In this document: one piece after another, positions 2,355-26,093 of the stretch
Numbering within the stretch: position 1 is the stretch's first letter
How the letters are laid out: every line of letters starts with the position of its first letter
Origin: Thermoplasmata archaeon
GTDB taxonomy: Archaea; Thermoplasmatota; E2; DHVEG-1
NCBI GenBank assembly: GCA_030640585.1
Contig: DAOWIZ010000039.1
Span: 1-42,760 of the forward strand
Length of the DNA: 42,760 nt
Reading direction: 5' to 3'
Notes under the pieces: model-generated
What the model was told of the DNA's origin: nothing
Seen by the model: the letters and a program-made list of their open reading frames with translations, nothing else
Databases searched by the model: none
Program-made: the position numbers and the translations under genes

Positions 2355-3026
2355 TTATCTATTCTTAGTAACTGATACCTGTTTGCAATATTTTTCTATA
2401 GGGCATTTACTGCAAAAAGGCGATATCGGTGTACATATAGTTTGTCCAAATTTTACAAACAGGTGGTTGAAATCATCCCAGTGTTTCTCAGGTAGTATTT
2501 TCCTTAATTCAGTTTCTGTTTCTCCAGGGTTTTTTGTTTGTATCCATCCAAGACGATTTGGGATTCTATGACAGTGAACATCGATCGGCAGGTATCCAGT
2601 TTTTTTGAAACCGTATACCATGACTATGTTTGCTGTTTTTCTACCAACGCCTTTTAGTTTAAGGAGTTCATCAAAACTATCTGGAACTCTGCCGTTGTAT
2701 TGTTCCAGTAGTGTTTTTGATATGTTTTTTATTGTTTTTGTTTTGGTTTTGTAGAAACCTACTGGATAAATGAGTTGTTGTATTTCTTCTCCAAGTGCTT
2801 TTAGTAGTTGTTCTGGTGTATTATATTTCTTTAGCAATCTGTATGATGCTTGTTCTGTGACCTCATCTTTGGTTCGTAAACTAAGAATGCAACTTATTAG
2901 TGTTGTAAAAGGTGTTTTGTTTATTTTTTCCCATTGTGGATGGGATACTGCTGGAAATTTTGTATTTTTTAGTTCTTCTTTTAAAAGATGAAATATTTCG
3001 TCAACATGTTCTATTGCTTTTTGCAT
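2355..3026 (-). CDS. nth: Endonuclease III (HhH-GPD, 4Fe-4S)
   Basis: LKGVGRKTANIVMVYGF hairpin-helix-hairpin; VDVHCHR-type segment; C-terminal CTPISPFCSKCPIEKYC iron-sulfur motif. Confidence 0.92.
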   Translation of the reverse strand: MQKAIEHVDEIFHLLKEELKNTKFPAVSHPQWEKINKTPFTTLISCILSLRTKDEVTEQASYRLLKKYNTPEQLLKALGEEIQQLIYPVGFYKTKTKTIKNISKTLLEQYNGRVPDSFDELLKLKGVGRKTANIVMVYGFKKTGYLPIDVHCHRIPNRLGWIQTKNPGETETELRKILPEKHWDDFNHLFVKFGQTICTPISPFCSKCPIEKYCKQVSVTKNR

Positions 3027-4522: not shown

Positions 4523-4595
4523 GCTCCCGTAGTGTAGTGGCCAATCATCAAGCCCTCTCGAGGCTTAGACCCGGGTTCAAATCCCGGCGGGAGCA
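4523..4595 (+). tRNA. tRNA-Glu(CTC)
   Basis: GCTCCCG...AAGCC CTCTCGA GGCTT...CCGGGTTCAAATCCCGG CGGGAGC A. Confidence 0.95.
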
Positions 4596-4598
4596 CTA
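4582..4598 (+). repeat. Left 17-bp direct repeat (tRNA-Glu 3' end), putative att site
   Basis: TCCCGGCGGGAGCACTA, identical to 18887-18903. Confidence 0.75.
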
Positions 4599-4910
4599 AA
4601 TTTTTATAGAAAATATTTAAGAATTAAATGTCGTCTATAATGCTTAATTAATACGAAAAATCCTATGAACTTGTTATAGTCACAGAGGAAACATAAAATT
4701 ATTGATTATAATTTCAAATTATAAATATTGTGAATATTTATCTAAATATGTACAGATAGTGTATTGATATGTGTTATTTATGTTTTTAAAAGAAATGTTG
4801 GATTGATGTTTAAAAAAGAACGTTATATTTTTATTTAGTTGGTTAATTATTGAATATGTATGAAATAGGATTTTTTCAAGAATTATAACATATATAAAAG
4901 GCGTCTATCT

Positions 4911-5792
4911 ATGAATAAGAATTCAGATAACAAAAAAAATATTCTTAGATTTTATAAATACTACTGGCCAATTTGTGAGAGATGGGGTGATGTATACAAT
5001 ACACTTGGGATGCATATTGGTTATTATGAAAAAGATACAAAAAATTCTAGTGAAGCATCATTGAGGATGAATGAATACATTGGAAAATTACTTGATTTAA
5101 ACAAAAATCAACCTCAGAGTATTCTTGATGCAGGGTGTGGGATTGGTGGTACATGTATTTACCTTGGAAAACTTTATCCAAACGTCAAATTTACAGGTAT
5201 AACGATAGTCCCAGATCAAGTTGAATTGGCTAAATTTTTTTCAAAAGAAAAAAATGTTAAAAATGTAGATTTTTTTCTAAAAGATTTTACTGATACGAAT
5301 TTTCCAAGTTGTTCTTTTGATGGAGTTTTTGCACTTGAGTCAATGGTTCATGCTCAAAATAAAAAAAAATTTGTTGAAGAAACACATCGAATCTTGAAAA
5401 ACAATGGAAAACTTGTCGTAATCGGACAATTTCAAACTAACACATCTCTTAATCCATTGATAGAAAAACTGTATCGTTTCACTCTTAAGTCGGGTGGCGT
5501 TCCAAATCTGATTAGCGTGGAAACTTTCTCAACATATCTTAAAGAAAATGGTTTTAATAACATAAAAATCATCGATATTTCCAAAAATGTAAGGTGGGGC
5601 CTGACAAGAGAGATGCTTATTAGCATCCCTTTCTTTTTTGCATGTATCATAAAAAAAATAATGAAGTCCAAAAAATATGATCCATTGAAAGATACAGATT
5701 TCTTGTTAGGCATCTCCAGTGTATCAGTCGTATTGGGCTTGAAAAAAACTTCTAAATATTATACGGTGTCTGCAACTAAGAGTAATAAATAA
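4911..5792 (+). CDS. SAM-dependent class I methyltransferase
   Basis: ILDAGCGIGGTCIYLGKLYPNVKFTGITIVPDQVELAK motif I and following; GKLVVIGQF. Confidence 0.85.
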   Translation: MNKNSDNKKNILRFYKYYWPICERWGDVYNTLGMHIGYYEKDTKNSSEASLRMNEYIGKLLDLNKNQPQSILDAGCGIGGTCIYLGKLYPNVKFTGITIVPDQVELAKFFSKEKNVKNVDFFLKDFTDTNFPSCSFDGVFALESMVHAQNKKKFVEETHRILKNNGKLVVIGQFQTNTSLNPLIEKLYRFTLKSGGVPNLISVETFSTYLKENGFNNIKIIDISKNVRWGLTREMLISIPFFFACIIKKIMKSKKYDPLKDTDFLLGISSVSVVLGLKKTSKYYTVSATKSNK

Positions 5793-5796
5793 TATT

Positions 5797-7051
5797 TCAT
5801 ATTTTTTTATCAAAAAGTATCGAATTATTTTCATTTGAATAAAAAACTTTAAAACCATTTTTAGTAAGAAACTTTTTTGCATAATTCATTCTACGAGATA
5901 TTTCATCATAAGGAATTTTAGGTTTAATTTTTTCTGCGGCTGTATCTTCTTTCAACGAGAACCTATAAATTACCCCTGAATCAAAATTAGTTTCAATAAT
6001 AAAATTTAAAGTTTCTTGAAATTCATCCCATGTTTCACTAGGAAATCCTATGATATAAGTGGTGGTTAATAACAAATTTGAAGATGAGTTTTTTATTTTA
6101 ATAAATGCATCTTTCATTTTTTCAACATTGTAATATCTGTTCATGAGCTGGAGTATACGACTACATCCTGATTGAATAGGAATGCCTAGACTGACTATTT
6201 TATTTCTTTTTAGTGGCTTTTTTAAATCATCAGCGTATTTGACAATCCATCCTGGATTGATATGTAAAATAGATATTTCGTATTCTCCAGTAATCTTAGT
6301 AATTTCATCAAGCAACTCAGGAAAACTACTACCTATATCTTGACCATAAACACTTGTGTCATCACCAGTTATAATAAATTTTTTATAACCTTCTTTTAAA
6401 CCTTTTTTAAACTCTGAAACACATTGAGTAAAAGGCTTACTATGAAGCTTTCCGATAGCTTTTTTAATAATGCAATACGAACAATTTCCTTTACAACCCC
6501 ATGAAATTCTAACACGAAATGGTTTGTTATTTGTAATTCCATCTGAAAAAAATTTAACTATATAATCTCCAATTTTAAAATAAACATTTTTTAGTATAGG
6601 CATGTTCCTAAAAACTTTTTTTATTAAACCAATAGGCGTTGTTTCATCTAATTTCTGAAATGGAACATTTGCATAGAATGTGTTTGCATCTTCTACATCG
6701 TGAAATTTTATTTTCTGGAAATAACTTATCAACTTCATCAGGATTTTTATCTAAATCTTTTGTACTAACTGTTTTACCTTTGAAAACCTCTTTAAGCCTT
6801 TCTTCTTCCATTGCTGGTAAACATCCAGCAACAATAATTTCAGCATTATATTTCTTGTATTTTTCAAGTTTTTTAAAGGAGTAATCTGTTGTATCGTTAA
6901 AAATCCCACATCCAATAAAAATTATTACATCGGCTTTCTCTGGTTTGTCAACTATTTCATGTCCATTTACAGTAAAATAAGTACAAAGCTTATTTGCATC
7001 AAGTAGTCTTAGTTCACAAGCTGTTACATAAAGAAATATTTTTTTCATCAA
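5797..7051 (-). pseudogene. Methylthiotransferase-like radical SAM protein, frameshifted (two ORFs, 6644-7051 and 5797-6738)
   Basis: N-terminal UPF0004-like ORF ends in ...LFPENKI; the overlapping ORF continues KFHDVEDANTFY and has the CKGNCSYC radical SAM motif; together they align with the 11123-12376 paralogue (...LFPENKIKFKNIEDVNLLY...). Confidence 0.8.
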
Positions 7052-7125
7052 TATTATTTATTATCTTTTCGTTTAAATAAATTTTGGAAAAAATTGTTAA
7101 TATTTTACAGATAATTTATTAAATT

Positions 7126-7194
7126 AAGTTTTTTAATTTTTCTTTTCAAATAGTAAAAAATTTGACTTTGGGAAATAAATTATTTTATAACCTG
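7126..7194 (-). pseudogene. Relic of the C-terminus of a radical SAM paralogue
   Basis: Minus-strand translation GYKIIYFPKSNFLLFEKKN*, matching ...TGYKIIYLPKSNFFLFEKKN* of 8874-9107; DNA 63/69 identical to 8867-8935 by manual alignment. Confidence 0.8.
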
Positions 7195-7273
7195 ATATCT
7201 TTTATATAAGTCTATAAAGGAGAAATAAAAAGAACATCTAAATAGTATGTACTATATAATATTGCGTATTACT

Positions 7274-8530
7274 ATGCAATCCTATAAAGTTCTCGTTGAC
7301 ACTAGCGTGAAATGTTTGTCAAATATTGTCGAGTCTTCAAGGATCTATCGTTATTTAATTGAAAATGGTCATGAAGTTACAGACGACGAATCTGAAGCAG
7401 ATTTTATAATAATTAATTCATGTGGCGCCACTAAAGTCAATCAAGATCGTTACATCAACCTTTTTCATAAATACTACTCCTTAAAGGAGAAAAATGCAAG
7501 GATTATTATGTTTGGCTGTCTTGTTAAAATTGATGAAGAACGATTACGTCCTTTGGATGTATGTCTAATCAGTTTTGAAGAAAGCTACAAATTAGATACA
7601 TTTTTTTATAGCAAAACAAAATTTCAGACGGTTAGACCATATTGTAGTAACGATACCAAAAAAAGATTAATTAGAAGAAAAGAACGGTTTCTAGTAAAAA
7701 CAAACTTAAGAGGAGATATTAAGAATCTCTTTTTAGAAAATATTACGTTCTTATTGTCTGCGGTATTTTTTCCCTTATCTAAAAAAGTTAGAGTAAACTA
7801 TGAAAAGATTTCTGCGGCTGATGACGAAAAAAGAATTTTGGTTGAAATTTGTAGAGGTTGTGTTGGAAACTGCAGTTACTGTGTCATTAAAAAAGCTAGA
7901 GGAAACATTCGTTCTAGAAAAATCGAAGATATTATCTCTGATATTGAAACATTGTATAATCCTTCAAAAAACATAATGTTGGTTGCCGATGATTGCAGTT
8001 GCTATGGATTAGATATAAATTCAACTTTAATAGAGTTGATCTATGAAATCAACAAAAGATTCCCTAAATTATCAATAGATCTAAATTATATTAACCCTCG
8101 TTGGTTGGAAAAATATCCTGAAAAGCATATCAAACTTTTTAAAGAGGTCGGCATAGGCGCGGCTACAGTTACAATGCAAAGTGGTTCAACAAAAATTGTG
8201 AAAAGTATGAATCGGAATTACAATACAAGCAACGTCATTAAGATTGTTGATCAAATAAAAAAAGTATCTCCTCAAACAATTATGTTCTCTCATTTTATTA
8301 TTGGCCATCCTCAAGAGAGCACCGTAGACTTTCTAAAAACATTATCATCTACTAAGCATTTTGATTATTCATCGCCGTTTATCTATTCTGACCTGAAAGG
8401 GACACGTAGTGCATCGTTACCTAATAAAAAATCAAAATTTGTCAAGTTATTAAGATTTTTTATCTTTATCTTGTTTACTAACTTTGTTATGTTACATAAA
8501 CTACTGACCTATCCATCACCCAATAGATGA
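7274..8530 (+). CDS. Methylthiotransferase-like radical SAM protein (divergent paralogue, opposite strand)
   Basis: Three N-terminal-domain Cys positions (VKC, NSCG, FGC) and the radical SAM motif CRGCVGNCSYC; no evident TRAM tail. Confidence 0.8.
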   Translation: MQSYKVLVDTSVKCLSNIVESSRIYRYLIENGHEVTDDESEADFIIINSCGATKVNQDRYINLFHKYYSLKEKNARIIMFGCLVKIDEERLRPLDVCLISFEESYKLDTFFYSKTKFQTVRPYCSNDTKKRLIRRKERFLVKTNLRGDIKNLFLENITFLLSAVFFPLSKKVRVNYEKISAADDEKRILVEICRGCVGNCSYCVIKKARGNIRSRKIEDIISDIETLYNPSKNIMLVADDCSCYGLDINSTLIELIYEINKRFPKLSIDLNYINPRWLEKYPEKHIKLFKEVGIGAATVTMQSGSTKIVKSMNRNYNTSNVIKIVDQIKKVSPQTIMFSHFIIGHPQESTVDFLKTLSSTKHFDYSSPFIYSDLKGTRSASLPNKKSKFVKLLRFFIFILFTNFVMLHKLLTYPSPNR

Positions 8531-8752
8531 GATAACTGCTGAAAAAAAAATAGAAGTGGATTATGGGAGATTCAAACACTTGATATTCACCATACCAAAG
8601 CGGTACCTCAATCAATCTAACCATAAGTTCATAAAAAATGCACAAACAATAAAAAAGCAACGCATCTAATCTCACAGGTCCATGAATAATCTCATACCCC
8701 TTTTTGGAAAAGCTTGATCTATAAGATATAGTTCCTAGACAGGTTTTATAGT

Positions 8753-8868
8753 ATCCGCCTTTGGCGGATGCACCTATCTAAGAGATAAGAACAATTATAA
8801 AAAGAAAAGAGTAGCGCGATTCATCTCCCAAACTAAAGTTTGGGGATTTCTTACTTACTGCATGTCAA
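8753..8868 (+). mobile_element. Possible IS605-type right-end / TnpB-associated RNA remnant
   Basis: Perfect hairpins ATCCGCC-TTT-GGCGGAT (8753-8769) and CCCAAACT-AA-AGTTTGGG (8827-8844), then TTAC...TCAA. Confidence 0.4.
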
Positions 8869-8935
8869 GCTTTTTAATTTTTCTTTTCGAATAGGAAAAA
8901 ATTTGATTTTGGTAAATAAATTATTTTATAGCCTG
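8867..8935. repeat. 69-bp direct repeat copy, partner of 7126-7194
   Basis: Six mismatches over 69 bp by manual alignment. Confidence 0.8.
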
Positions 8936-9176
8936 TTTTTCTCAAAAATTTTTTTGCATATTTCATACATGATAAAATTTCATTTCTGGTTATCTCTGGT
9001 TTGATTTTATCTGCTAAGGTTCCTTTATTTGGAGAAAATGGGAAAAGTCTACCTGAAGTAAAACCTCCATCTATTATAAGCTTTAAAGTCTGTTTGAATT
9101 CATCCATTGTTTCAGATGGAAAACTAACTATGCAAGCTGTGTAAACTGCTAAATTTGGAAATTTTTTCTTTATTTA
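8874..9176 (-). pseudogene. C-terminal fragment of a radical SAM (methylthiotransferase-like) paralogue, 5' truncated
   Basis: Frame stays open upstream of the annotated ATG: IKKKFPNLAVYTACIVSFPSETMDEFKQTLKLIIDGGFTSGRLF..., aligns with the C-terminal third of the neighbours. Confidence 0.85.
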
Positions 9177-9177
9177 C

Positions 9178-9777
9178 TCCTGCATGGGTTTAATACCCCG
9201 GAGCTCTGCTGCGGTTAGTTTTTAAACCTGTTGTGGAATCAACTTTTTAATGGAAGTTAAATATGCATCTCATTGTAGCTATCGTATATGATATCATATG
9301 GTGTTTGTTCTCAAATACCGAAAAAATCTCATCACTAAGGAAATTTTTGAATATATGAAATATATTCTCTCTGGCATATCTAAGCGATATTATCTAAATT
9401 TTCAAGCGATAGGTGCTGAGAGAAATCACCTTCATATTCTCATCGAAGCAGCACCAAGATATTCTCCATCTCAGGTCATGCAAATCTGTAAAAGTATTAC
9501 TGCAAAGCAAATCTTCAAACATTTTCCTGAGATCGAAGAAGAACTTTGGGGAGGTCATTTTTGGTCTGAAGGAGGCCATATCGATACAGTTGGGGATGGT
9601 TATGGTGTAAAAGAGATGGAGAGGTATATTCTAAGCCAAGGTGTTTCAAAGAAACAGATGAAATTGTATCAATTTCCATCAACAGTTGTTGATGAAGAAT
9701 CGCCGTCTAGAAAATCTGCGTAATGCCCCGATGCTCTGCATCGATTGGGATAGCAGATTTTAGGCGATTCTATTTAC
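9178..9777 (+). mobile_element. IS200/IS605-family element (about 600 bp)
   Basis: TnpA-like ORF; subterminal hairpins CCGgAGC-TCT-GCTgCGG (9198-9214) and CGATGC-TCT-GCATCG (9729-9743); TATTTAC at both boundaries (9171-9177, 9771-9777). Confidence 0.75.
9298..9723 (+). CDS. tnpA: IS200/IS605-like TnpA (Y1 transposase), N-terminally interrupted
   Basis: VFVLKYRKN...GAERNHLHILIEAAPRYSPSQVMQICKSITA...GHFWSEGGHIDTVGDG...MERYILSQG; in-frame ATG at 9250 followed by TGA at 9289. Confidence 0.9.
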   Translation: MVFVLKYRKNLITKEIFEYMKYILSGISKRYYLNFQAIGAERNHLHILIEAAPRYSPSQVMQICKSITAKQIFKHFPEIEEELWGGHFWSEGGHIDTVGDGYGVKEMERYILSQGVSKKQMKLYQFPSTVVDEESPSRKSA

Positions 9778-11072
9778 TTTTTTTCAAAAAACACTCCGTT
9801 TACCCACAAACTATTATACCACACAGAATAATCTAAATTCTTGAGATATTTTTTGGCCATTTTCAATCTTTTATTCATCTCTCTTTTTAAAATTTGAGGT
9901 TTAATGTCATTTGCATCGGTTTTATTCATAGGTGAAAAACCATATATCATTCCAGAATCAATTTTTGATTCTTTTATAAACTCTAATGTGTCTTTGAATT
10001 CATCACTTGTTTCACTTGGAAAACCAGCTATTGCTTCAACTTCAATTTTCAAATTTGAATCGGCTTTTTTAAATCTGTTTAGAACATTGATTAAATCTTC
10101 TTTTTTGTAATTTCGACGCATAAGTTTTAGAATTCTACTGTTTGCAGATTGAATTGATAAAAGAAGATATTTTATCTTATTTTTCTTAAATATTGTTTCA
10201 AATTGATCAGCGTACTTTATAAGCCAATAAGGGTGCGTATTGGAAAGATAGAGCATATAATCGCCTTTTATTTCAGTCATTTCATTTAATAATTCAGGCA
10301 AACTACTTTTGATATCTACCCCATAGATCCCGACATCGTCTGCTTGTAATAAAAATTTTTTATAACCTTCTTTTAAACCTTTTTTAAATTCATTCATGCA
10401 TTGTTTTTTTGATTTACTTTGTAAAGGACCTACAGCTTTTTTAATTGCACAATAAGAACAATTATGTATACATCCCCTTGATATGAATATCTGATTCATT
10501 AGCGGATTATCAAAATATCTTTCCTCCGGGAAATATAAAAATGCAAACGGAAATTTTTTAATAAAAATTTTTCCAATTGTGTTGTCTCTTAAAAAAATAT
10601 ATGTTTCTCTCATAATTTTTGAATTATTAAGAATATTTTTAACAAGATTTGCCGGTTGCTCATAAATCCCTATTGGATTAAAATTTTGCCATACGATGTT
10701 TTCATCTTTAATCTCGCTAAATTTTATTTCATTATTTTCAAAAAAAGTATCAATAATATCCATGTTTTTTGTTGGAATTTTTTTCCCATCAAACACTTCT
10801 TTTAATTTACTATCAGCAATGTCTGGTAGACAACCTGCTACTATAAGTTCTCCATCAAATTTTTTAAATTTTTTAATCGTTTTTATGCCATCATCAGCTA
10901 CAGTATTAACAAATCCACAAGTAAAAAAAATTATATAATCAGCTATTTTTGGATTATTAACAATCTTGTAATTATTTTTCATAAAATATGTGCTTATTTT
11001 TTTAGCATCAAGAGATCTTCTTTCACATCCTTTTACATATATGAACACATTTTTATTATTCATTTTACCCAT
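9774..11072 (-). CDS. Methylthiotransferase-like radical SAM protein without evident TRAM domain
   Basis: GCERRSLDAKK, FFTCGFVN, AGCLPD Cys positions; SRGCIHNCSYCAIKKAVG radical SAM motif. Confidence 0.85.
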   Translation of the reverse strand: MGKMNNKNVFIYVKGCERRSLDAKKISTYFMKNNYKIVNNPKIADYIIFFTCGFVNTVADDGIKTIKKFKKFDGELIVAGCLPDIADSKLKEVFDGKKIPTKNMDIIDTFFENNEIKFSEIKDENIVWQNFNPIGIYEQPANLVKNILNNSKIMRETYIFLRDNTIGKIFIKKFPFAFLYFPEERYFDNPLMNQIFISRGCIHNCSYCAIKKAVGPLQSKSKKQCMNEFKKGLKEGYKKFLLQADDVGIYGVDIKSSLPELLNEMTEIKGDYMLYLSNTHPYWLIKYADQFETIFKKNKIKYLLLSIQSANSRILKLMRRNYKKEDLINVLNRFKKADSNLKIEVEAIAGFPSETSDEFKDTLEFIKESKIDSGMIYGFSPMNKTDANDIKPQILKREMNKRLKMAKKYLKNLDYSVWYNSLWVNGVFFEKK

Positions 11073-11122
11073 ACTCTAGTATCATTTTTTAATAAAACTT
11101 TAGTATCGCATTCAATAACCTA

Positions 11123-12376
11123 TTATATACCTTTATCAAATAGAAAAGAATTAATCTTTGCAATATAAATAACTTTGTATTTATTATTAACCAAGATACA
11201 TCTAGTATATTTCATTGATTGTAATATTTCTTTTTTTGAAAATTGTGGTTTGATTAAGGCTGCATCAGTTCCAGTTTTTTTTGAATATGGAAATATCTGT
11301 CCAGAATTAAATCCAGCACCCTTAAGCAGAAATAAAGTTTGATTTAATTCATTTTTTGTTTCAGTTGGAAAACCTACAATTATGTGAGTAATTAAAGATA
11401 TCTCTGGAAAAGATTTTTTAATTTCTTTAACTGTTTCTTTTAGTTTTTCAACATCAGAATATCGGTGCATTAATCTCAAAATACGGCAGCTACCAGATTG
11501 AAAAGGAATTTCTAAAGCTATAATTTTACCTCTTTCCAATATTGGTTTTAATTTCCCATGGTATTTAATCAACCATCTCGGGTTTAAACCTCTGATATAC
11601 AGTTTATAGTTTCTCTCTATTTCAGTCATCTTATCAAGTAGTTCTGGCAAAGAACTATTATTGTCTAGCCCATATGAACCGATATCCTCAGCCGTGATAA
11701 CAAAATGTGTGTAACCATTTCTCAATCCTTTTTTCAACTCATCAATACACTGGTTAAGTGGTTTACTGTGCATAGGACCTGTAGATTTTTTTATTGTACA
11801 GTAAGAGCAATTCCCCTTGCAACCCCATGAGACTCTAATGTGGAATTGGTTTTTTGTATATGCCAAATATACAAATGATCGTTCATCAAAAAGATTTCTT
11901 AAAATATGTGTTTTAAGAAATAGATACGATTTGTTAATAATTCTTACCTCTTCCAAAGTTTTTTTAAAAATACTTTCTGGAAAATTTAGGTTAATATTAT
12001 CATATAATAAATTTACATCTTCAATATTCTTAAATTTGATTTTATTCTCTGGAAACAAAATATCTATCTCGTCTAAATTTTTTGTAGAAATTGTTTTTCC
12101 GTTAAAAATTTTAGATAAAGATTCTTTCTCAACTTCTGGAAGACAACCTGCAACAATTAATTCTGCATCATATCTCTGGAATTTTTTTATTTGGTCTAAC
12201 GAACTATCAGAAACTTGATTTACAGCTGCGCATGTAACAAAAATAATTATATCTGCTTCGTCTGGTTTATTTACAAGAGTACTATTGTTTTTAGATAAAT
12301 AATTGTATATTTTTTTTGTGTCCAAAGACCTTCTTCGGCAAGATTGAGGGTCGTTGTATACAAATATTTTTTTCAT
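11123..12376 (-). CDS. Methylthiotransferase-like radical SAM protein without evident TRAM domain
   Basis: SCRRRSLDTKK, FVTCAAVN, AGCLPE Cys positions; SWGCKGNCSYCTIKKSTG radical SAM motif. Confidence 0.85.
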   Translation of the reverse strand: MKKIFVYNDPQSCRRRSLDTKKIYNYLSKNNSTLVNKPDEADIIIFVTCAAVNQVSDSSLDQIKKFQRYDAELIVAGCLPEVEKESLSKIFNGKTISTKNLDEIDILFPENKIKFKNIEDVNLLYDNINLNFPESIFKKTLEEVRIINKSYLFLKTHILRNLFDERSFVYLAYTKNQFHIRVSWGCKGNCSYCTIKKSTGPMHSKPLNQCIDELKKGLRNGYTHFVITAEDIGSYGLDNNSSLPELLDKMTEIERNYKLYIRGLNPRWLIKYHGKLKPILERGKIIALEIPFQSGSCRILRLMHRYSDVEKLKETVKEIKKSFPEISLITHIIVGFPTETKNELNQTLFLLKGAGFNSGQIFPYSKKTGTDAALIKPQFSKKEILQSMKYTRCILVNNKYKVIYIAKINSFLFDKGI

Positions 12377-12493
12377 GAACTATAGTGTTTATGCCTGTTA
12401 TATTATAAGGAAGTTTTGGAAGTTTTAAAAGAACGATATCTATTTAAAAAGTTAATATGATGCGTTAGATATAACTAAATATTAACTGATTAA

Positions 12494-13918
12494 ATGGAAA
12501 GAATTGGTCTTAAAGGGCGCATCAGCAATTATATGTATGATCGTCTCGCTGATAATGATGTTTCTTTTACTGCTGAAGGAATAATCATTTTGATGAATTA
12601 TAAAATATACAAGAATACATGTGGCTTTTTAACAGAATCTCAATCTTGGAGTAAAGAAAAAATTAAAAGATATCAACTTAAAAAATTACATCAATTAATA
12701 AAACATTCATATGAAAATGTTCTATATTATAAAGAATTATTTGATAAAAATGGAATAAAAATTGAAGATATAAACGACTTTAACGATTTGCAAAAAATTC
12801 CTTTTTTAACAAAAGAAATTGTTAAAAAAAATATTGAAGATCTCAAATCAATAAATTATCCTAAATATTCCTTTTCTTATTTGACAACAGGTGGTTCTAC
12901 AGGAGCTCCTTTGGGGTTTTTTGATGAAAAAAGCATTTCTTATGTCAAAGAATTGGCATACACAAAAACAGTTTTGGATAGAATTGGATATAAATATAAA
13001 GATAAATTTGTAGTTTTTAAAGGAGCGGCGATACCATCCGTTGAAAAAGGAAAATTTTGGAAGTATTCATCTTTTGGTAGATCCTTAGTTTTTTCATCGT
13101 TTTATATGAATGAAAAAAATTTACCAAGATATATCAAAAAAATTGAGGAATTTAAACCACAATATATCATAGGATATCCCTCAGCAATAACAATCCTTGG
13201 AAAATATATTAAAAATAATAACATTAAAAAATTTAAAAACCTCAAGGGAATAATCTGCGGTGCTGAGACTCTTTACAAATGGCAAAAAGATTTTTTAGAA
13301 GAAATTTTTGGATGCAGAGTCTTAAATAATTATGCTCTTAGTGAACAGGTAGTATTTGCAACAAGTTGTGAAAAAAGTGATGATTTACACATTTTTCCAG
13401 AGTATGGATTCGTTGAATTAATTGACAAAAATGGCCGAGCTATAAATTGTGAGGATAAAAGAGGAGAAATTGTAGCTACTGGATTTAAAAACTTTATATT
13501 TCCATTTATAAGGTATAAAACTGGGGATTTTGGAATATACACAAACAAAAAATGTGAATGCGGTCGAAACTGTCTCATTATAAAACAAATTGAAGGACGT
13601 AAACAAGAATTCATAGTAACAACTGATGGGCGACAAATTTCTATGGCTGCAATGAATATGCATTCTAATGTTTTTGATAATGTTAAACAATTCCAATTTT
13701 ATCAGGATAAAAAAGGTGAAGTTGTATTCAGAATTATTAAAAATAGTTTATATTCTGAGAAAGATAGCAGAAATATAAAGCAGGAACTTTATAGAAAACT
13801 AGGTAAAAATATTGATTTAAAACTTGAATTTGTTGATGAAATACAAAAAACCTTTAGAGGAAAACATAGTTATTTAATTCAGAAATTAGATGAAAATAAT
13901 TATAATTCTAACAGATGA
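12494..13918 (+). CDS. CapK / phenylacetate-CoA-ligase-like adenylate-forming enzyme
   Basis: YLTTGGSTGAPLGFF, GAETLYKWQKDFLEEIFGCRVLNNYALSEQ, RYKTGDFGIY; start may be ATG 12593. Confidence 0.85.
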   Translation: MERIGLKGRISNYMYDRLADNDVSFTAEGIIILMNYKIYKNTCGFLTESQSWSKEKIKRYQLKKLHQLIKHSYENVLYYKELFDKNGIKIEDINDFNDLQKIPFLTKEIVKKNIEDLKSINYPKYSFSYLTTGGSTGAPLGFFDEKSISYVKELAYTKTVLDRIGYKYKDKFVVFKGAAIPSVEKGKFWKYSSFGRSLVFSSFYMNEKNLPRYIKKIEEFKPQYIIGYPSAITILGKYIKNNNIKKFKNLKGIICGAETLYKWQKDFLEEIFGCRVLNNYALSEQVVFATSCEKSDDLHIFPEYGFVELIDKNGRAINCEDKRGEIVATGFKNFIFPFIRYKTGDFGIYTNKKCECGRNCLIIKQIEGRKQEFIVTTDGRQISMAAMNMHSNVFDNVKQFQFYQDKKGEVVFRIIKNSLYSEKDSRNIKQELYRKLGKNIDLKLEFVDEIQKTFRGKHSYLIQKLDENNYNSNR

Positions 13919-13987
13919 TAAAAATTAATTGAGAAAATATTATGTTATATCTGACTAGCAAAAACTTGATTGAAAAAATATGATCAC

Positions 13988-14917
13988 ATGAAACAAGAAA
14001 AATTATACGATGAACAATATTTGCTCGAACTTGAAGATATTTCATTTAAACCTATATTTATCTTGGGTTTGCATAGGTCGGGGACAACAATCTTATATAA
14101 GATGTTAAATGAAACAAAACAGTTTGATGTAGTAACCGCATATCATATTTTAAATTATGAAAAAATTCTATATAACCATATCAACAACCTTAAAACAAAT
14201 GCAAAAGATCAACTAAATCAGCTTTTTAAAGACAAAGGAGTCATAGATAGAAAAATAGACCATATCAAAGTCAATGCAGATTATGCACATGAATATGGAT
14301 ATATACTATCTAAACATAGTTCCTCAAATAAAATTAATAATAAAAACCTTAGATTATTCAATGAAATGTGCAAGAAGATTAAGTATGTCTCAAAAAATAA
14401 GAAACCATTGCTTTTAAAAAATCCTTTTGACTATGCAAATTTCATTTTCATCAAAAAGAATTTCCCAAACGCAAGATTTATTTTTATAACAAGAAAACCT
14501 TTGAATATTATTAATTCAACAATGAAAGTATTGAACGATTTAATGAACGAAAAAAATAACTATGCTGTTTTGTTTTCTAAAAAATATAACAAATATTTTG
14601 AAAATCCTTTGTTACTAAATACTTTAAGATTTTATTGCTCTTCTTTGTTACCTTTTGGTTTATTTAGAGTTATAAATCAATCTGCAAAAGAAACAAAGTT
14701 TTTTTTGAAAAATATAAAAAAAATCCCTGAAGAAGATTACATGATTATCAGATATGAAGATTTGTGTACAGAAACAAATAAAATTATGATGGAAACTATG
14801 GATTTTTTAAAAATTAAATCCGATATAGACTTTAATCGATATATCTCAGTCCGGGAAATTGAATTATTACCTAATGTAAACTTTCTGAAAAAATTTATCG
14901 AATTTAAAATGAAATAA
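13988..14917 (+). CDS. Sulfotransferase family protein
   Basis: PIFILGLHRSGTTILYKML (PAPS 5'-phosphosulfate-loop-like) and NARFIFITRKPLNIINSTMKVL. Confidence 0.8.
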   Translation: MKQEKLYDEQYLLELEDISFKPIFILGLHRSGTTILYKMLNETKQFDVVTAYHILNYEKILYNHINNLKTNAKDQLNQLFKDKGVIDRKIDHIKVNADYAHEYGYILSKHSSSNKINNKNLRLFNEMCKKIKYVSKNKKPLLLKNPFDYANFIFIKKNFPNARFIFITRKPLNIINSTMKVLNDLMNEKNNYAVLFSKKYNKYFENPLLLNTLRFYCSSLLPFGLFRVINQSAKETKFFLKNIKKIPEEDYMIIRYEDLCTETNKIMMETMDFLKIKSDIDFNRYISVREIELLPNVNFLKKFIEFKMK

Positions 14918-15021
14918 TATGGCACATTCTTGAATTATAATTATTAAAAATATTTCATTTTAATTTTTGAAAAATGTTTTGTAGGTTTAACTTTATACTC
15001 TTTTTGAAAAGTTGTGAATTC

Positions 15022-16083
15022 ATGGAAATAAGATATATCAATGACATTGAACTTTTATCTAATGAAAATGCTGAAGAGTATGGTACTTTTATATCAAATA
15101 ACTTGGATTCAACAATATATCATACAACATATTGGAAAAATATTGTAGAGAAAAAATTTGCGTTTAAACCGTATTATATTATATCACGAAATCAAAACGA
15201 CGAGATATGTGCTGTTCTTCCATTATTCTATGTTAATAACTGCTTAGGTAAAAGGCTTGAATCTATCAGTTATTCCCCATATGGTGGAGGTATTGGGAAA
15301 AAAATATACATCAAAGATTTGTATGAAAAAGCCTTAAAACTTAGAAAACATTTGAATTGTAAATCATTAATCACTAGAGAGGTTTCAGGCAAATATGATT
15401 CCATTTTCAGCGATCTTAACATGGTAAAAATTGAGAAATGGTTTAGACAATATTCTAAAATTACAGATCCTATAAAAACGTGGGATTTAATAGATAAATC
15501 AAATAGAACAAATGTTCGATTTGGGGATAGAAGCAAGCTAACAGTAGAAACCGTAAAAGATCAAAAGGGTTTAAGAGAATTTTACGATTTATATTTAAAG
15601 ATTTATACCCATCTAGGTTTCCCTGTTTGTTCATTTGATTTTTTTTCAGAGATCTGGAATAATTTTCATTCAAAAAAATTAATCGAAATATTCATTGCAA
15701 GGTATGATGAAAAAGCTATTTCTTCGACACTTAATTATTTATTCAATAAAACAGTTTATTCTGCTAATCTTGGGTGGGATATAAAGTATTCAAATCTAAA
15801 ACCTAATAATTTTATTGACTGGTATCTTATCAAATGGTGTTACATTAATGGTTATGATTACTTTGATTTTGGATTAACTAATGTCCAAAATAAAGGTTTA
15901 TTTACATATAAAAATTCTTTTAACACAATCAATGAGTCTTATTCGATGTATTGCTATCCAAAAAACGTTCAATATGCAAATAAAAGTGATTTAATAAAAA
16001 ACTCTGGAAGATTTATTATATCAAAATTACCTGTTTCATTTAATCGACGTTTTGGTATGTTTCTTAATAAAAATTTTTTATAA
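15022..16083 (+). CDS. FemAB/GNAT-like acyl- or aminoacyltransferase
   Basis: AVLPLFYVNNCLGKRLESISYSPYGGGIG ... YDYFDFGLTNVQNKGLFTYKNSF, FemAB-type layout. Confidence 0.75.
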   Translation: MEIRYINDIELLSNENAEEYGTFISNNLDSTIYHTTYWKNIVEKKFAFKPYYIISRNQNDEICAVLPLFYVNNCLGKRLESISYSPYGGGIGKKIYIKDLYEKALKLRKHLNCKSLITREVSGKYDSIFSDLNMVKIEKWFRQYSKITDPIKTWDLIDKSNRTNVRFGDRSKLTVETVKDQKGLREFYDLYLKIYTHLGFPVCSFDFFSEIWNNFHSKKLIEIFIARYDEKAISSTLNYLFNKTVYSANLGWDIKYSNLKPNNFIDWYLIKWCYINGYDYFDFGLTNVQNKGLFTYKNSFNTINESYSMYCYPKNVQYANKSDLIKNSGRFIISKLPVSFNRRFGMFLNKNFL

Positions 16084-16153
16084 ACAAATAATTTTTTTTA
16101 AAAAAATGTTTTTACCGATTATTTTTTAAATTGTTTTTTCTTTATAAGTTAAA

Positions 16154-17473
16154 ATGAAAATTTTATTCATTCAACCTAAATCAAATATCAAAAAAATCCA
16201 TAAAATTCTACAAATCTTTGAAGAAGATCAATTTTATTATTTGCATACATCTGTTTATTACCTAGCCTCGATAACTCCTTTAGATTATCAAATAAAAATA
16301 ATCGATGAACGTTTTAAAAAAATTAAAGATTGCAGCGAGTATAATTTAGTAGTTATATCTTTTTCAGCACCTTTTTCATCAAGAGCTTATGAATTATGTA
16401 GATATTTCAAAGAAAAAGGCAAAATTGTTGTTCTAATGGGTCCGCATCCTTCGTTTATGCCAAATGAAGCTAAAAAAAATGCTGATTCTGTTATAATAGG
16501 TGAACCAGATGCTATTTGGATTAATTTATTAAAAGATGCTGAGAATAACAAACTTAAGGAGTGTTACAAGGCTGATGAGTTAATAGATCCTACGGATATA
16601 AAAAGATATAGATTTAACTTCACAAATATATTTTTACCTGAACGAATAGAAGCAAGTCGGGGGTGTCCCAACTGTTGTAGTTTTTGTTTGGCGCCAAAAA
16701 TCCTGGGTTCAACTCAACGTAAAAGACCTATCCAAAATGTAATAGATGATATAAAATCTATAAAAAATAAAGTAATTGTATTTGATGATTCTTCATTTAC
16801 AAATGATCCGGGTTATGCAAAAAAACTGTTTAAAAAACTTAGAAGATTAAAGAAAAGATTTATTTGCTGTGGTAATGTAAATGTTCTAAGTGAAGATGAT
16901 GAATTACTGAAGCTTGCAAAAAAAGCAGGATGCATTGCTTGGTATATAGGTTTCGAATCTTTCAATCAGAAAACGCTTGATGCTATAGGAAAAAAAACAA
17001 ATGATAGACTCGTTTACAAATCGCTTGTAAAAAAAATTCATGATCATGGCATGGCTATTGAAGGCTCTTTTATCTTTGGCTTTGATAGCGATAACATTGA
17101 TGTTTTTGATGAAACTTTAAAATCTATACTTGAACTAAATATTGACATAGCTGCTTTCAATATACTTGGAGTGTATCCTGGCACAGAATCGTATCAAAAA
17201 TTAGATGATGAACAAAGAATTCTTACGAAGGATTGGGATAATTATCATTTCTTTCAAGCTACCTTTAAACCAAAAAATATGTCTAAGCAAGAGTTGGAAA
17301 AAGGCGTTTATAACTTGGCTTTAGAATTTTATTCGATAAAAAACATACTTAAACGTTCGCTAAAATCATTTAAATTTGGTTATTATCCTTTTTTTTATGT
17401 GTTGACCAAGAATTATTTACAAAGACAGTTTTATAAATCTTGGATAGTATTTTATAAGAATTACACAAAATGA
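16154..17473 (+). CDS. B12-binding-domain-type radical SAM protein
   Basis: MKILFIQPK...VVLMGPHPSFMPNEA...IIGEPDAIW; RGCPNCCSFC (CxxxCxxC). Confidence 0.88.
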   Translation: MKILFIQPKSNIKKIHKILQIFEEDQFYYLHTSVYYLASITPLDYQIKIIDERFKKIKDCSEYNLVVISFSAPFSSRAYELCRYFKEKGKIVVLMGPHPSFMPNEAKKNADSVIIGEPDAIWINLLKDAENNKLKECYKADELIDPTDIKRYRFNFTNIFLPERIEASRGCPNCCSFCLAPKILGSTQRKRPIQNVIDDIKSIKNKVIVFDDSSFTNDPGYAKKLFKKLRRLKKRFICCGNVNVLSEDDELLKLAKKAGCIAWYIGFESFNQKTLDAIGKKTNDRLVYKSLVKKIHDHGMAIEGSFIFGFDSDNIDVFDETLKSILELNIDIAAFNILGVYPGTESYQKLDDEQRILTKDWDNYHFFQATFKPKNMSKQELEKGVYNLALEFYSIKNILKRSLKSFKFGYYPFFYVLTKNYLQRQFYKSWIVFYKNYTK

Positions 17474-17534
17474 TTATTTTTTTCAAAACAAAGATTCTTA
17501 TTAATGTTGATGGTGTTACACTTTTAGTAAAAGC

Positions 17535-18794
17535 ATGAAAATTCTCTTAATTTCACCAAAATCCAAAAGCAGTACAGAAAAAAGTAAAAAATTAATTTTT
17601 AAGCTTCGTATACATCCAACTTTAACTCTAAAACAGTTAGCTAGTGTGACACCTGATAAACATAATATGAAATTGATCGATGAGAGATATGAGAATCTAG
17701 ATTTTAATTTAAATTTTGATTTAGTAGGTATTTCTTGTATGACACCAGAGGCTAATAGGGCATATAAAATATCTGATAAATTTCGAGAAAAAGGAATACC
17801 AGTTATATTAGGGGGCTGGCATCCTTCGGTTTTACCTAAAGAAGCTAAATTGCATGCCGACTCAGTTGTTGTTGGAGAAGCAGAATATCTATGGCCTCGA
17901 TTGTTAAAAGATTTTGAAGGAGGAAATCTTAAACAATTCTATAAACAAAATGAAGCAGTTAACCTGGGTCAGATTAGACCTATAAAAAGAAAACCAGAAA
18001 ATTATGTTTCTTTTACAGATGCCGTGCAGAGTTCAAGGGGTTGTCCTTTTAGATGCGAATTTTGCGCAATCTCAAATAATGAATATGGTAAATTATATCG
18101 TAAAAGAAAAGTTGAAGATGTAGTAGATGAACTAAAATCTATAAAACAAAAATACATATATTTTTTTGATCCCTCGCTGACTATTGATTTAGATTATACA
18201 AAAAAACTATTTAGAGAAATGAAAGGATTAAACAAAGAATTCAAATGTTTTGGTAATTTAGATAGTTTAGCCAAGGATGATGAACTTTTAAAGCTTGCTT
18301 CTGAGGCAGGATGTAGAATATGGTTTGTTGGCATGGAATCTGTATCTCAAAAAACTCTTGACTTCCTCGGTAAAAATAATAGTATAAAAGATTATAAATC
18401 TTTAATTGGAAAAATCCATGATTATAATATGTCTATTTTTGCCAGTTTTATATTTGGTTTTGATACCGATACAATCGATGTTTTTGATAAAACAATTGAA
18501 AATGTATTTGATTTAGATATTGATGAGGCGAATTTTGGGATTTTAACCCCATATCCTGGTACACCATTATTTGATCGTTTAGAAAAAGAAAGAAGGATTA
18601 TTACAAAAGACTGGTCTAAATACACAGAGAATAATGTAGTTTTTCAACCTAAAAATATGACTCCAAATGAGTTAATGGATGGAACAATAAGAGTTAGAAG
18701 GGGGATAAATTCTTTTTCAGGTATTTTTAAAAGAAAAGTTAAATCAAAACGAGTATCTTGCAAAGTTCTTTCACAAACTTTTTTATCTGCTTAA
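17535..18794 (+). CDS. B12-binding-domain-type radical SAM protein (paralogue of preceding gene)
   Basis: MKILLISPK...VILGGWHPSVLPKEA...VVGEAEYLW; SRGCPFRCEFC. Confidence 0.88.
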   Translation: MKILLISPKSKSSTEKSKKLIFKLRIHPTLTLKQLASVTPDKHNMKLIDERYENLDFNLNFDLVGISCMTPEANRAYKISDKFREKGIPVILGGWHPSVLPKEAKLHADSVVVGEAEYLWPRLLKDFEGGNLKQFYKQNEAVNLGQIRPIKRKPENYVSFTDAVQSSRGCPFRCEFCAISNNEYGKLYRKRKVEDVVDELKSIKQKYIYFFDPSLTIDLDYTKKLFREMKGLNKEFKCFGNLDSLAKDDELLKLASEAGCRIWFVGMESVSQKTLDFLGKNNSIKDYKSLIGKIHDYNMSIFASFIFGFDTDTIDVFDKTIENVFDLDIDEANFGILTPYPGTPLFDRLEKERRIITKDWSKYTENNVVFQPKNMTPNELMDGTIRVRRGINSFSGIFKRKVKSKRVSCKVLSQTFLSA

Positions 18795-18886
18795 ATACAG
18801 GTCGTCCTAATCATTCCAGCCTTTCGAGCATTATTGCTAATGATCAAGTGTCCTTACAGTAGGAGCATTGAACCATTAGCAAGTAT

Positions 18887-18903
18887 TCCCGGCGGGAGCA
18901 CTA
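18887..18903 (+). repeat. Right 17-bp direct repeat (tRNA-Glu 3' fragment), putative att site
   Basis: TCCCGGCGGGAGCACTA identical to 4582-4598. Confidence 0.75.
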
Positions 18904-19072
18904 TTCATCTTCCAATTTATTTGTGCAATTCAAAAGGGAAGGGGATGCTGGTTAGCTAAGAGGGAATGGGATACACTCCTAAAAAACATACCAGCACAAA
19001 TCCTTCCAAACCTAAATATAAAAATTCATTTATATATTTTGTTGATAGAACAGAGTATATTCTAAAATAATG

Positions 19073-19663
19073 TTATCGACTTAGGATATCTCCCATGCAT
19101 ATCTTTATTAGTTCTTTTTTTGGCACAGTTGCATCAATTTTAAGGAAACGCTTTCCTTTGGCTAATTTTAAATAGTTTTTATGTACTTTTTCAAGGAACG
19201 CCTGTTTTTCAAATGGTATAAGATTATCACGGTGTTGAATACGAGCAAGTGCACTTTCTGGTTTTATTACAAAAACAAAGGTTCTATCAGGAATTAGTAT
19301 CCGATCTTTGGACAGTTCTTTCAACCATTTAATTGGATTATTCACTAATTCCTCTAATTGTACACCCTGATATGCATATGTCGATTCAGCATAACGATCA
19401 CAGAGCACAATTTTATCATCATCAAGCCATTTCTGTATCTGCTGACAGTGTTGTATACGATCAGCAATAAACGTAAATGATGTTACAAACGGATCGGTAT
19501 GTAATTCTATACATTTCTGTACTTGTTTACCTATCCGTGTATTTGTTGGCTCTTGTGTTAAAATTACATCATATCCCTGATTCCTGATCTCTTTGAAAAC
19601 AATTTTTGAAATAGTTGATTTACCGCTTCCATCGATTCCTTCAAAGGTTACAAAATGTTTCAT
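19073..19663 (-). CDS. tmk: Thymidylate kinase
   Basis: MKHFVTFEGIDGSGKSTISK, LTQEPTNTRIG, LCDRYAESTYAYQG; ATGA overlap with priL. Confidence 0.93.
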   Translation of the reverse strand: MKHFVTFEGIDGSGKSTISKIVFKEIRNQGYDVILTQEPTNTRIGKQVQKCIELHTDPFVTSFTFIADRIQHCQQIQKWLDDDKIVLCDRYAESTYAYQGVQLEELVNNPIKWLKELSKDRILIPDRTFVFVIKPESALARIQHRDNLIPFEKQAFLEKVHKNYLKLAKGKRFLKIDATVPKKELIKICMGDILSR

Positions 19664-20694
19664 TTCTTTTTTTTCTCCTGTCCCCATTTAGCAGTATAAT
19701 AACTAAGTGGATGTCTTGTTCGTTTACAAAGACCATCTATTTTTTCAACAGGGCATATACCATAAGTTCTCATTTTGTCACACCCAGGTGGCTTGTAAGA
19801 GGTCGCCGATATATCACCAGTTATGTGTTCCACTTGATATCTGGTTCTTTCTTCTTCATAATCAGGTGCAGTACTAAATAATTTTAATATGTCATTTGTA
19901 CTGAGTTTAATGGAATTCAAGAACGCTACAAGAGCAAATCGACCAGCATGTGGTACGTTTTCACCGGCTTGTATCGCAGCAAGTATATCTTTAATACATG
20001 GTGGCAGTTTTTCTACATCCAGTCTTCCAACGGGTACCGCCTCTATTTTTTTACGATGCATCATAACAGTATTCTGTATCCGTTGAATATCAGTTGAAAA
20101 TGTTTTGTATATAGCATTATTACATTGTCGGCTGTCAAGTTCATTATTAATACGTGCCCGTAGTGCTTCCTGTATTAATCGTGCTAGGTCTTTATGGGAT
20201 ATGTTAATGTATCCTTGGCTCATTTCACGGTTAATCATCTTCCACTCTTTGTAACGAGTTGGAGCATATTTTAGGTAATCTGTAAAATGGATTTTTATCT
20301 TGTTTGCATCCTCATCGTATTCTATTTTGATATCGAACTCTTTTGAAACTTGTGTAAGAAAAGACATCTGTTCATTTATCAGGTTTTTATATGCATGTAC
20401 TGCTTCACCAAGTGCATATCTACGTTTGAAATATACATCACCGATGCATACAGCAATCATTCTTGCTATTGGGTAAGATAATAGTTCCATGATACAATCA
20501 GTTTCACCAGATAGGCTACGATTTCCTGCATCCCTATTTTTAAATGACTTATCTATCCTTTCTAGCCCTATCATACGAGCCCGTTCATATAATGGGTCAT
20601 CTAAAATCTCTGAGACTGATAAATTATTGTCCTTAACATAGTCTTTAGAAGCATTAAGAAATGGATATTTAGCAAGTGTTGAAATTTCTGCCAT
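19660..20694 (-). CDS. priL: DNA primase large subunit
   Basis: MAEISTLAKYPFLNASKDYV...; C-terminal PPGCDKMRTYGICPVEKIDGLCKRTRHPLSYY Fe-S region. Confidence 0.92.
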   Translation of the reverse strand: MAEISTLAKYPFLNASKDYVKDNNLSVSEILDDPLYERARMIGLERIDKSFKNRDAGNRSLSGETDCIMELLSYPIARMIAVCIGDVYFKRRYALGEAVHAYKNLINEQMSFLTQVSKEFDIKIEYDEDANKIKIHFTDYLKYAPTRYKEWKMINREMSQGYINISHKDLARLIQEALRARINNELDSRQCNNAIYKTFSTDIQRIQNTVMMHRKKIEAVPVGRLDVEKLPPCIKDILAAIQAGENVPHAGRFALVAFLNSIKLSTNDILKLFSTAPDYEEERTRYQVEHITGDISATSYKPPGCDKMRTYGICPVEKIDGLCKRTRHPLSYYTAKWGQEKKKK

Positions 20695-20863
20695 CTTTTT
20701 GCCTTCGTTATACTTAACCACATTTTATTAAAGTAGTTTTTCCCAGGTGATTTTACATTTTGACATTCTGCCACGATATATATAAATACTAACCATTGAC
20801 AAAGAATATCACGTTAATATTTATCCAGATAATAATTTGGAAAAAAATGAGGAGATAAAGAAT

Positions 20864-20971: not shown

Positions 20972-21093
20972 AAAAACCTCATAAGTAAAACAAAAAATAC
21001 GGCTTTTTTAAATTAAAATAAAATGAGTAAATAACCTCTAAATTTTAAGTAGTAGAACTTATATTACGGCTAGAACAGACTATTATTAATTTT

Positions 21094-21167
21094 GGGCTTG
21101 TAGCTTAGTCTGGTGGAGCGTCTGGCTCATAACCAGATGGTCGCAGGTTCAAATCCTGCCAGGCCCA
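21094..21167 (+). tRNA. tRNA-Met(CAT), elongator-like
   Basis: GGGCTTG...TCTGG CTCATAA CCAGA...GCAGGTTCAAATCCTGC CAGGCCC A. Confidence 0.93.
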
Positions 21168-21168
21168 T
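21154..21168 (+). repeat. Left 15-bp direct repeat (tRNA-Met 3' end), putative att site
   Basis: TCCTGCCAGGCCCAT identical to 28323-28337. Confidence 0.7.
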
Positions 21169-21467
21169 ACTTCATATTAGGAAAAGTTTTGCCAAGGGTA
21201 TTTTTATTTTCGGGGTGCTTGTTTTTATAGGATCTTCAATGTTAGGTATTTGCTATTGCCTGCTGCATGTCATTTTCAATGACAGATAAGTCCGACCTGT
21301 GAGCGTTTTTTCTTCTATTGAAATTATTCGTGTTTTGTTGTGTTTACTATTTCGTATGGTAATTTCTCGGCGTTGCCGGTCAATATCTGAGAGTTTGAGG
21401 TTGCGTAGTTATATTTTTAAAGAATTACTTATTACTATCCTGCAATTGCAGAGAAGGAGAGACACAA

Positions 21468-22184
21468 ATGGAAAACAAAGAAATAAAATTGATAGTAAAA
21501 ATATTATTGATAATTGGGGTAGTTTTTGTTGGCTTAAGTCTGTTAGTACCTTGGTTAGGTACAGGTTTCTACCTTTGGGGATCCTCGATATTTGGTCAAA
21601 CAAGTGTTTTTTATATCGATTTTATCGGTTTATTGGGCGGATATGGAATATTGTTGATGTTGTCCTCAATTATTACATTTGCGTTGGTTATGATTGCTCT
21701 TGGGGTTGGAATTCGTTCAATTATAAACGTCGATCGGTACAAACCCAATACTGCTCTAACTGCAGGAATATTATCTGTAGTTTCAATGATAGTTCTTGCC
21801 GTTATACTCAATATAGGGTATTCAATATTAGATGGGGGATTTAATTTCACAGGATTAAACTTTGGTTTAGGTTTTTATATGATGATAATTCCAACAATAC
21901 TGTTTTTTGCCGGCTATGGAATTCAGATAACTCTTCTATCAAAACCAACGACACCTATAACTCAACAACCGATGTATCAGCAAAATGTGTATCAACCTCA
22001 GCCTGCTCAACCGATGCAACCAAGTGCTCCACCAATGCCTGCAACTGTAAAACAACCACAACCACCGCCAGTGCAGCAGACTGCGCCTCCACCAGCTCAA
22101 ACCAGCGATAAATTCTGTGCAGAGTGCGGTGCCGAGTTACAGCCGAACGTAAAGTTTTGCCCTGAATGTGGAGCCAAACTATGA
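21468..22184 (+). CDS. Membrane protein with Pro/Gln-rich linker and C-terminal zinc ribbon
   Basis: Several hydrophobic helices; QPMYQQNVYQPQPAQPMQP linker; KFCAECGAELQPNVKFCPECGAKL. Confidence 0.85.
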   Translation: MENKEIKLIVKILLIIGVVFVGLSLLVPWLGTGFYLWGSSIFGQTSVFYIDFIGLLGGYGILLMLSSIITFALVMIALGVGIRSIINVDRYKPNTALTAGILSVVSMIVLAVILNIGYSILDGGFNFTGLNFGLGFYMMIIPTILFFAGYGIQITLLSKPTTPITQQPMYQQNVYQPQPAQPMQPSAPPMPATVKQPQPPPVQQTAPPPAQTSDKFCAECGAELQPNVKFCPECGAKL

Positions 22185-24661: not shown

Positions 24662-24685
24662 AACATAATATCGAATGGGATTACC

Positions 24686-24707
24686 GAAGAAAATTTTATA
24701 TTTCTTC
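24686..24707 (+). terminator. Hairpin plus T-rich tract downstream of 22181-24661
   Basis: GAAGAAA-ATTTTATA-TTTCTTC followed by ATATTTTTTCTTTTT. Confidence 0.45.
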
Positions 24708-24832
24708 ATATTTTTTCTTTTTGACAACATCAAAAGATATTCTGTGCTGTATCACAAAAACCTATTTGTTAAGTATCTCTTTTAAAAAAGGAGAAAAGAG
24801 GTGTTTTGTTGGAAATAGATGTTACTATTGCT

Positions 24833-25291: not shown

Positions 25292-25363
25292 TTTTTCCTC
25301 ACCTAAAAGTCTCAATCAAATCAGCCATATATATTCTTTTCTTTTTTTTATGTTTCTTCTAAT

Positions 25364-25807: not shown

Positions 25808-26093
25808 CCAATCACACCATTAATAAGAGTCAACATTTTGGTATAAGCATTTTTTGGATTTGTCGACTGTTACATGCATTGTGATGTTTCATATGCTGAA
25901 AGTTAGTAGTATAGACGAATGTCCATATAGACAATCTATTATTAATGTTGAAAGAAGCATGGACATATAAAAATCAAGAAAGGTTATTCACTAACGTGAC
26001 AAAATCAAGTTATATTCCAATTTTTTAATGATGAAAGTTTTTATAACAAAGATATTTATTCTTTTTATTGAGGTTATGATGGAGAATGAATAA

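Follow-up and report, generated by a model that had tools for sequence, protein, structure and literature searches.

Genomic islands targeted to tRNA genes, as collected by Islander (PMC4383910), leave a regenerated tRNA gene together with a displaced 3′ fragment of it in the same orientation, and are absent from relatives. Islander requires an integrase inside the interval, whereas the general island concept does not; it contains only four tandems of three or more islands, each member having its own integrase. In additive flexible genomic islands (PMC5217437), site-directed recombination inserts and deletes cassettes at a single location, with tRNA tails between them, and recurring tRNA-Lys tails are described for the Methylophilaceae (PMC10872708).

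The locus described here lies within a 42,760-nucleotide stretch of DNA (contig C79; hereafter the window) from a Thermoplasmata archaeon. It has the regenerated tRNA, the displaced fragment and the absence from relatives of an Islander island, although Islander's filter would reject it because there is no integrase in the interval. We judge, with a probability of about 0.88, that positions 4599–18903 are a 14-kb cargo element integrated site-specifically at the tail of tRNA-Glu(CTC), its integrase acting in trans or since lost. This reading is based on the repeat and the empty site, on the foreign composition and a recurrent end arm, and on the finding that integrases are lacking from the interval but present at other tRNAs of the host. 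The host genome is a MAG of 1,293,340 bases (1.29 Mb) in 102 contigs, 81% complete; an assembly error is therefore possible, and a partner integrase may lie outside the assembled part.

The inserted segment and its boundaries

The integration target, tRNA-Glu(CTC), is intact at 4523–4596 (+ strand; ARAGORN and Rfam). The 17-mer TCCCGGCGGGAGCACTA is present exactly at 4582–4598 and 18887–18903, in both cases on the + strand. The left copy (attL) comprises the last 15 bases of the tRNA and 2 further bases, whilst at the right copy (attR), an orphan tRNA tail, no tRNA was called; the original prediction of a same-strand repeat with an intact tRNA on the left side only is borne out. The 17-mer had no match in 100 dinucleotide shuffles and, allowing at most one mismatch, these are its only two sites in the whole assembly. 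A third match within the window, at 38804, has three mismatches and no relation to the element ends. The right core is identical to the CTC tail at 17 of 17 positions; the tail of the host tRNA-Glu(TTC) deviates (TCCCGTCGGGAGCATAC), its core differing from the CTC core by one base, located inside the palindrome.

Two relatives of another genus have the empty site (G048, locus L303; G019, locus L167). The island-free order in relatives is priL-tmk / tRNA-Glu / SAMP2-like gene / tRNA-Ser(CGA) / orf330 / nth. G019 carries this order complete on a single 7-kb contig, with tRNA-Glu approximately 80 bp from tmk; in G048, tRNA-Glu(CTC) is approximately 150 bp from tmk, which is followed by priL. The tRNA–tmk spacer of G048 aligns with window positions 18904–19072, with TAGCTAAGAGGGAATGGGATACACTCC as an identical run; the local score is 62, whereas 300 shuffles reach at most 19. 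The left end of the island does not align with it (score 13, against a shuffle maximum of 22). What lies on the right-hand side of the orphan tail (18904–19072, no strand assigned) is the native chromosomal sequence that follows the tRNA, and 4599–18903 is therefore the inserted segment. Of the interval first proposed, 4523–18903, the right end stands but the left does not: the element proper begins at approximately 4599, because the tRNA itself is chromosomal. Core genes lie outside, as had been proposed, with nth (2355–3026) on the left, and tmk (19073–19687, − strand) and a priL-like primase subunit gene (19660–20721) on the right.

The composition of the island is foreign. At 28.1%, its GC content is below that of the other window segments (33–36%). 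The tetranucleotide distance between island and outside is 0.244, whereas equal-length stretches of two other host contigs give 0.10–0.17. Both the composition and the search for empty sites in related genomes gave the result expected of an integrated island.

Independent evidence that 18903 is the element end comes from the sequence adjoining the right core. A 28-column profile (class C), built from orphan ends in nine other genomes with the window and the core left out, ranks 18859–18886 (+ strand) first among 85,464 positions, at 26.3 bits against 10.5 for the next. Over 1.85 Mb of fetched sequence, nearly all of its best matches directly precede a tRNA-Glu-like core, and shuffled sequence gives no matches. 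At least nine other loci with an orphan tRNA-Glu tail share the right-end arm.

We regard it as very improbable that this is no insertion at all, i.e. a biosynthetic locus specific to the lineage, next to either a tRNA-like repeat of chance origin or a tRNA-Glu pseudogene. Such a locus would accord with the presence, within the right end (18809–18829, + strand), of 21 nt that exactly match the anticodon arm of the host tRNA-Glu(TTC) (score 42, against a shuffle maximum of 20), and with paralogues elsewhere in the host of the cargo ligase and one cargo radical SAM protein. However, the 17 bp identical to the CTC tail are unique in the genome, the empty sites of the relatives contradict it, and the class-C arm lies exactly at the expected place. 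An intact tRNA with its same-orientation displaced 3′ fragment, an empty site in relatives and foreign composition are all found here; the call of an integrated island is correct, about as firmly as sequence permits.

Cargo genes and integrases

The interior had been described as a biosynthetic-looking cluster with an IS element, and the identified genes agree with this. A SAM-dependent methyltransferase gene (4911–5792, + strand; Pfam Methyltransf_11) is followed by the first of four MiaB/RimO-like radical SAM genes, which is frameshifted (5797–7051, − strand) and split into two ORFs (5797–6738 and 6644–7051). The others are at 7247–8530 (+), 9774–11072 (−) and 11123–12376 (−), the last two encoding proteins without a TRAM domain. 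Between the second and third is an IS200-type Y1 transposase gene (9298–9723, +; Pfam Y1_Tnp, E 3e-27). The remaining genes, all on the + strand, encode a PaaK-like adenylate-forming ligase (12494–13918), a sulfotransferase-family protein (13970–14917; Sulfotransfer_3, E 1e-20), a FemAB/GNAT-like acyl- or aminoacyl-transferase (14974–16083), a radical SAM protein of the B12-binding type, with a weak B12 domain (16154–17473), and a B12-binding radical SAM protein (17535–18794).

The MiaB-like set retains the three UPF0004 cysteines and the CxxxCxxC motif (C16, C52, C201, C205 and C208 invariant, C81 nearly so), and a predicted structure of one member (pLDDT 85) superimposes on MtaB, RimO and MiaB with TM scores of 0.63–0.70 (0.66–0.70 for RimO and MiaB). 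The fold and six cysteines are thus common to these methylthiotransferases, but the cargo proteins score under the TIGR00089 cut-off and have no TRAM domain; the profile match ends before a C-terminal TRAM, and no barrel is present in the predicted structure. Among 80 bacterial loci, the surroundings of a cargo radical SAM protein include no conserved version of the window cluster, only radical SAM genes and chance neighbours, and viral contigs searched with a MiaB-like cargo protein yielded no relatives. The cargo may constitute a tailoring pathway, the putative product being a modified small molecule or surface compound.

Related cargo is found in other islands. In G048, tRNA-Arg(GCG) and its displaced 15-bp tail, 18.4 kb apart, enclose the same type of cargo: a methyltransferase (a 38% relative of that in the window), ligases, MiaB-like and B12-type radical SAM proteins, with additional ATP-grasp-like, aminotransferase and LPG-synthase-TM proteins. 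The end of this tRNA-Arg island was dropped as a class-C candidate (profile rank 7, 3.7 bits). In G041, a MiaB-like cargo gene, a core and an intact 400-aa integrase gene lie in a row. A 48% relative of the sulfotransferase several kb past tRNA-Glu in G006 was not counted as an island because core-type genes intervene; by eye these are PRC-barrel-like, dCTP deaminase-like and peptidyl-prolyl-isomerase-like.

A PF00589 search found no integrase in the island or the rest of the window contig. At least three tyrosine integrases, identified as PF00589 members, are present elsewhere in the host assembly (C13, C69 and C45), where the original prediction had suggested looking. That on C13 is intact (438 aa) and its gene ends inside tRNA-Glu(TTC), such that the C-terminus is read from the tRNA tail; no second tail for this element was found within the contig. 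The C69 integrase, at a contig edge, adjoins tRNA-Ile. No SSV-type integrase halves are present at the island ends, and viral contigs searched with a host integrase gave no relatives.

In relatives, integrases adjoin the cores in G000, G017, G040 and G041. G040 has an 80% relative of the C13 integrase at its tRNA-Glu(CTC) locus, directly after an orphan core. A 55% relative belongs to a complete 4.5-kb element that occupies tRNA-Glu(TTC) in G017 and has a 17-bp att repeat; the 3′ end of this integrase gene overlaps the tRNA in the same arrangement as the host C13 gene. G011 has an integrase fragment approximately 1 kb past tRNA-Glu(CTC). The occurrences at tRNA-Glu in the host and in G040, G017, G041 and G011 indicate that integrases suited to such tails are probably common in the family. 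For the window element they are candidates only; the core of the C13 integrase is one base off the CTC core, so action on the CTC tail is not implied.

As the element has no integrase, one must have been supplied in trans or been lost. We propose that recombination of the tyrosine-integrase type between a short core in the element end and the tRNA-Glu(CTC) 3′ tail would have restored the tRNA tail at the left boundary, the displaced copy remaining at the right one, with the integrase either acting in trans or disappearing afterwards. The original prediction had offered loss or trans mobilisation; the absence from the island is confirmed, and either may apply to the window copy. Both are sub-readings of the integrated element.

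According to the first, the element would be the decayed, now fixed remnant of an integrative plasmid or provirus that formerly encoded its integrase and has lost this and its mobility genes. The frameshifted gene and the internal IS200-type element are in keeping with this, as are the decayed integrase fragments that G011 and G003 carry at the same tRNA, and no replication, capsid or conjugation gene was recognised in the island by the Pfam/profile scan. Most other genes are, however, full length, the cores are identical over 17 bp, and short cassettes that have intact cores but lack a recognised integrase are so frequent in relatives that random decay would not easily account for them. We consider such decay a substantial possibility, somewhat short of even odds.

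The tRNA-Glu tail in related genomes

The 14-base tail TCCCGRYGGGAGCA has 89 matches in 45 genomes of the family. The reversed pattern has none in the 45, which excludes that the repeat is a widespread random sequence, an objection raised with the original prediction. Most of the matches were fetched; they divide about equally between intact tRNA-Glu(CTC) or (TTC) genes and orphans. Several orphan cores share one contig in G062, G048 and G001, some with two or three in tandem, and close neighbours are spaced by about 1.5 to 12 kb. The relatives are mostly fragmented and several contigs stop at the repeat, such that these counts depend on the assemblies. In a scan of part of the ORFs, the intervals between orphan cores contain unrelated cargo (papain, gingipain and carboxypeptidase families, AAA_14/DUF4143, histidine kinase, UbiA and others); among the integrase matches listed, none falls inside most of these intervals. 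Published peptidases of MBG-D/Thermoprofundales (PMC6461988) appear to resemble the C1, C25 and M14 peptidase cargo of the relatives. The tRNA-Glu/tmk interval itself holds 4.5 kb of different genes in G016, and G001 resembles the window in having an orphan tail approximately 190 bp from tmk. In G042, two tails 23 kb apart do not delimit an island, their order being the wrong one.

The orphan cores are preceded by a small number of recurring sequences. One of these, arm A (TTTACYRGTAAATTNNNGTTCNNNTCCC), has 46 matches (reversed control, 0), which fall in 21 of the 45 genomes of the family and in 1 of 35 genomes from elsewhere; most copies of a shorter pattern precede a tRNA-Glu-like core, often a decayed one. 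The core beside the G041 integrase is of the arm-A type, whereas the right end of the window is of the distinct class C. Judged from these matches, the tRNA-Glu tail appears to be a docking site reused by many gene cassettes across about twenty genera, most of which seem to carry no recognisable enzyme for their own movement.

These observations bear on the second sub-reading, in which the tRNA-Glu tail and conserved end arms would form an integron-like system and the window element would be a cassette moved by the integrases of resident elements. The orphan tails with few recurring arms, unrelated cargo and tandem cores, the near-confinement of arm A to the family and the integrases beside cores in four relatives all point this way. 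On the other hand, tandem ordinary islands with later integrase loss would look alike, and the class-C arm of the window has no link to a particular integrase. We hold the chances of this sub-reading to be evenly balanced. Action in trans is favoured by the many small cassettes of relatives that lack a recognised integrase and have recurrent ends, and the element probably belongs to a lineage-wide cassette system on tRNA tails mobilised in this way, although its frameshift, IS element and tRNA-Glu(TTC) scrap suggest that it may no longer be mobile. A fuller version, advanced tentatively and at odds well below even, is that the island belongs, as a single cassette, to a lineage-wide form of integron-like gene capture, with the tRNA-Glu tail as recipient, end arms marking the cassettes and a few resident tyrosine integrases acting in trans, by which secreted proteases, regulators and radical-SAM clusters would spread among about twenty genera.

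Comparison with known systems

The locus shares with additive flexible islands the use of one site, differing cassettes in relatives and tRNA tails between them, the window island representing one cassette. The present system differs in being archaeal, in having conserved arms beside the tail and in extending over about 20 genera. Set against the few Islander tandems, contigs with three orphan tails occur in the relatives. Tycheposons, in the account given in PMC10872708, likewise carry cargo and are bordered by tRNAs, but are associated with a tyrosine recombinase, which the window element does not contain. Integrated elements of Thaumarchaeota, as far as PMC6563490 presents them, also target tRNA genes, mostly at the 3′ end, in a different lineage; no cassette arrays on recurring tRNA tails were found described for them in that source.

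If integrase-less cassettes do move via the shared tRNA-Glu tail, the family would possess a gene-capture system topologically analogous to integrons, and one detectable from sequence by its conserved arms and core. Island finders that need an integrase would miss such cassettes, and many MAG contigs stop at these repeats. Integrons and CALINs (PMC11389934) have the same topology, with cassettes lined up behind a recipient site and a recombination site at the end of each, often without an integrase; the core here is, however, a tRNA tail rather than a known attC, and the likeness is one of topology. The principle is already known from tRNA islands and additive flexible islands; what is new is its form here, archaeal, arm-conserved, integrase-poor arrays on a tRNA-Glu tail, which would be mobilised in trans.

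A second tRNA-anchored interval

The window holds a second tRNA-anchored interval, at tRNA-Met(CAT) (21093-28337). The tail of this tRNA, TCCTGCCAGGCCCAT, lies at 21154-21168 and is repeated exactly at 28323-28337, where the second copy adjoins a DUF763 gene; zinc-ribbon proteins and a DUF2330 protein are encoded between the interval's ends. On the tRNA-Met/priL side, integrases or integrase fragments were found in three of the compared genomes (G020, G048 and G049), and a decayed integrase in a fourth (G014). An archaeal 16S rRNA gene on the minus strand is represented at the edge of the window by its 5′ portion (1-692).

Right end of the tRNA-Glu(CTC) island and the tmk flank

Within the island's right end, 21 nt (18809-18829) exactly match the host tRNA-Glu(TTC). 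Between tRNA-Glu and tmk, a strongly conserved noncoding stretch, TAGCTAAGAGGGAATGGGATACACTCC (18949-18981), is common to the window and the empty site of G048 (L303). The stretch has no Rfam match and may be a small RNA.

An island and candidate end arms at other tRNAs

The tRNA-Arg(GCG) of G048 carries an 18.4-kb island (locus L243, 869-19313), the cargo of which is homologous to that of the window island. At three further loci (L273, L321 and L357), orphan tails, that is, displaced tRNA 3′ ends, resemble tRNA-Ser(CGA) and tRNA-Leu(CAA). In the host, a truncated integrase at a contig edge (C69, L264) adjoins tRNA-Ile(GAT). Because the orphan tRNA-Ser(CGA)- and tRNA-Leu(CAA)-like tails are preceded by GGTAAATT arms, which resemble arm A, one of the sequences recurring upstream of orphan tRNA-Glu tails, the sequences suggest that this end type is also used at tRNAs other than tRNA-Glu.
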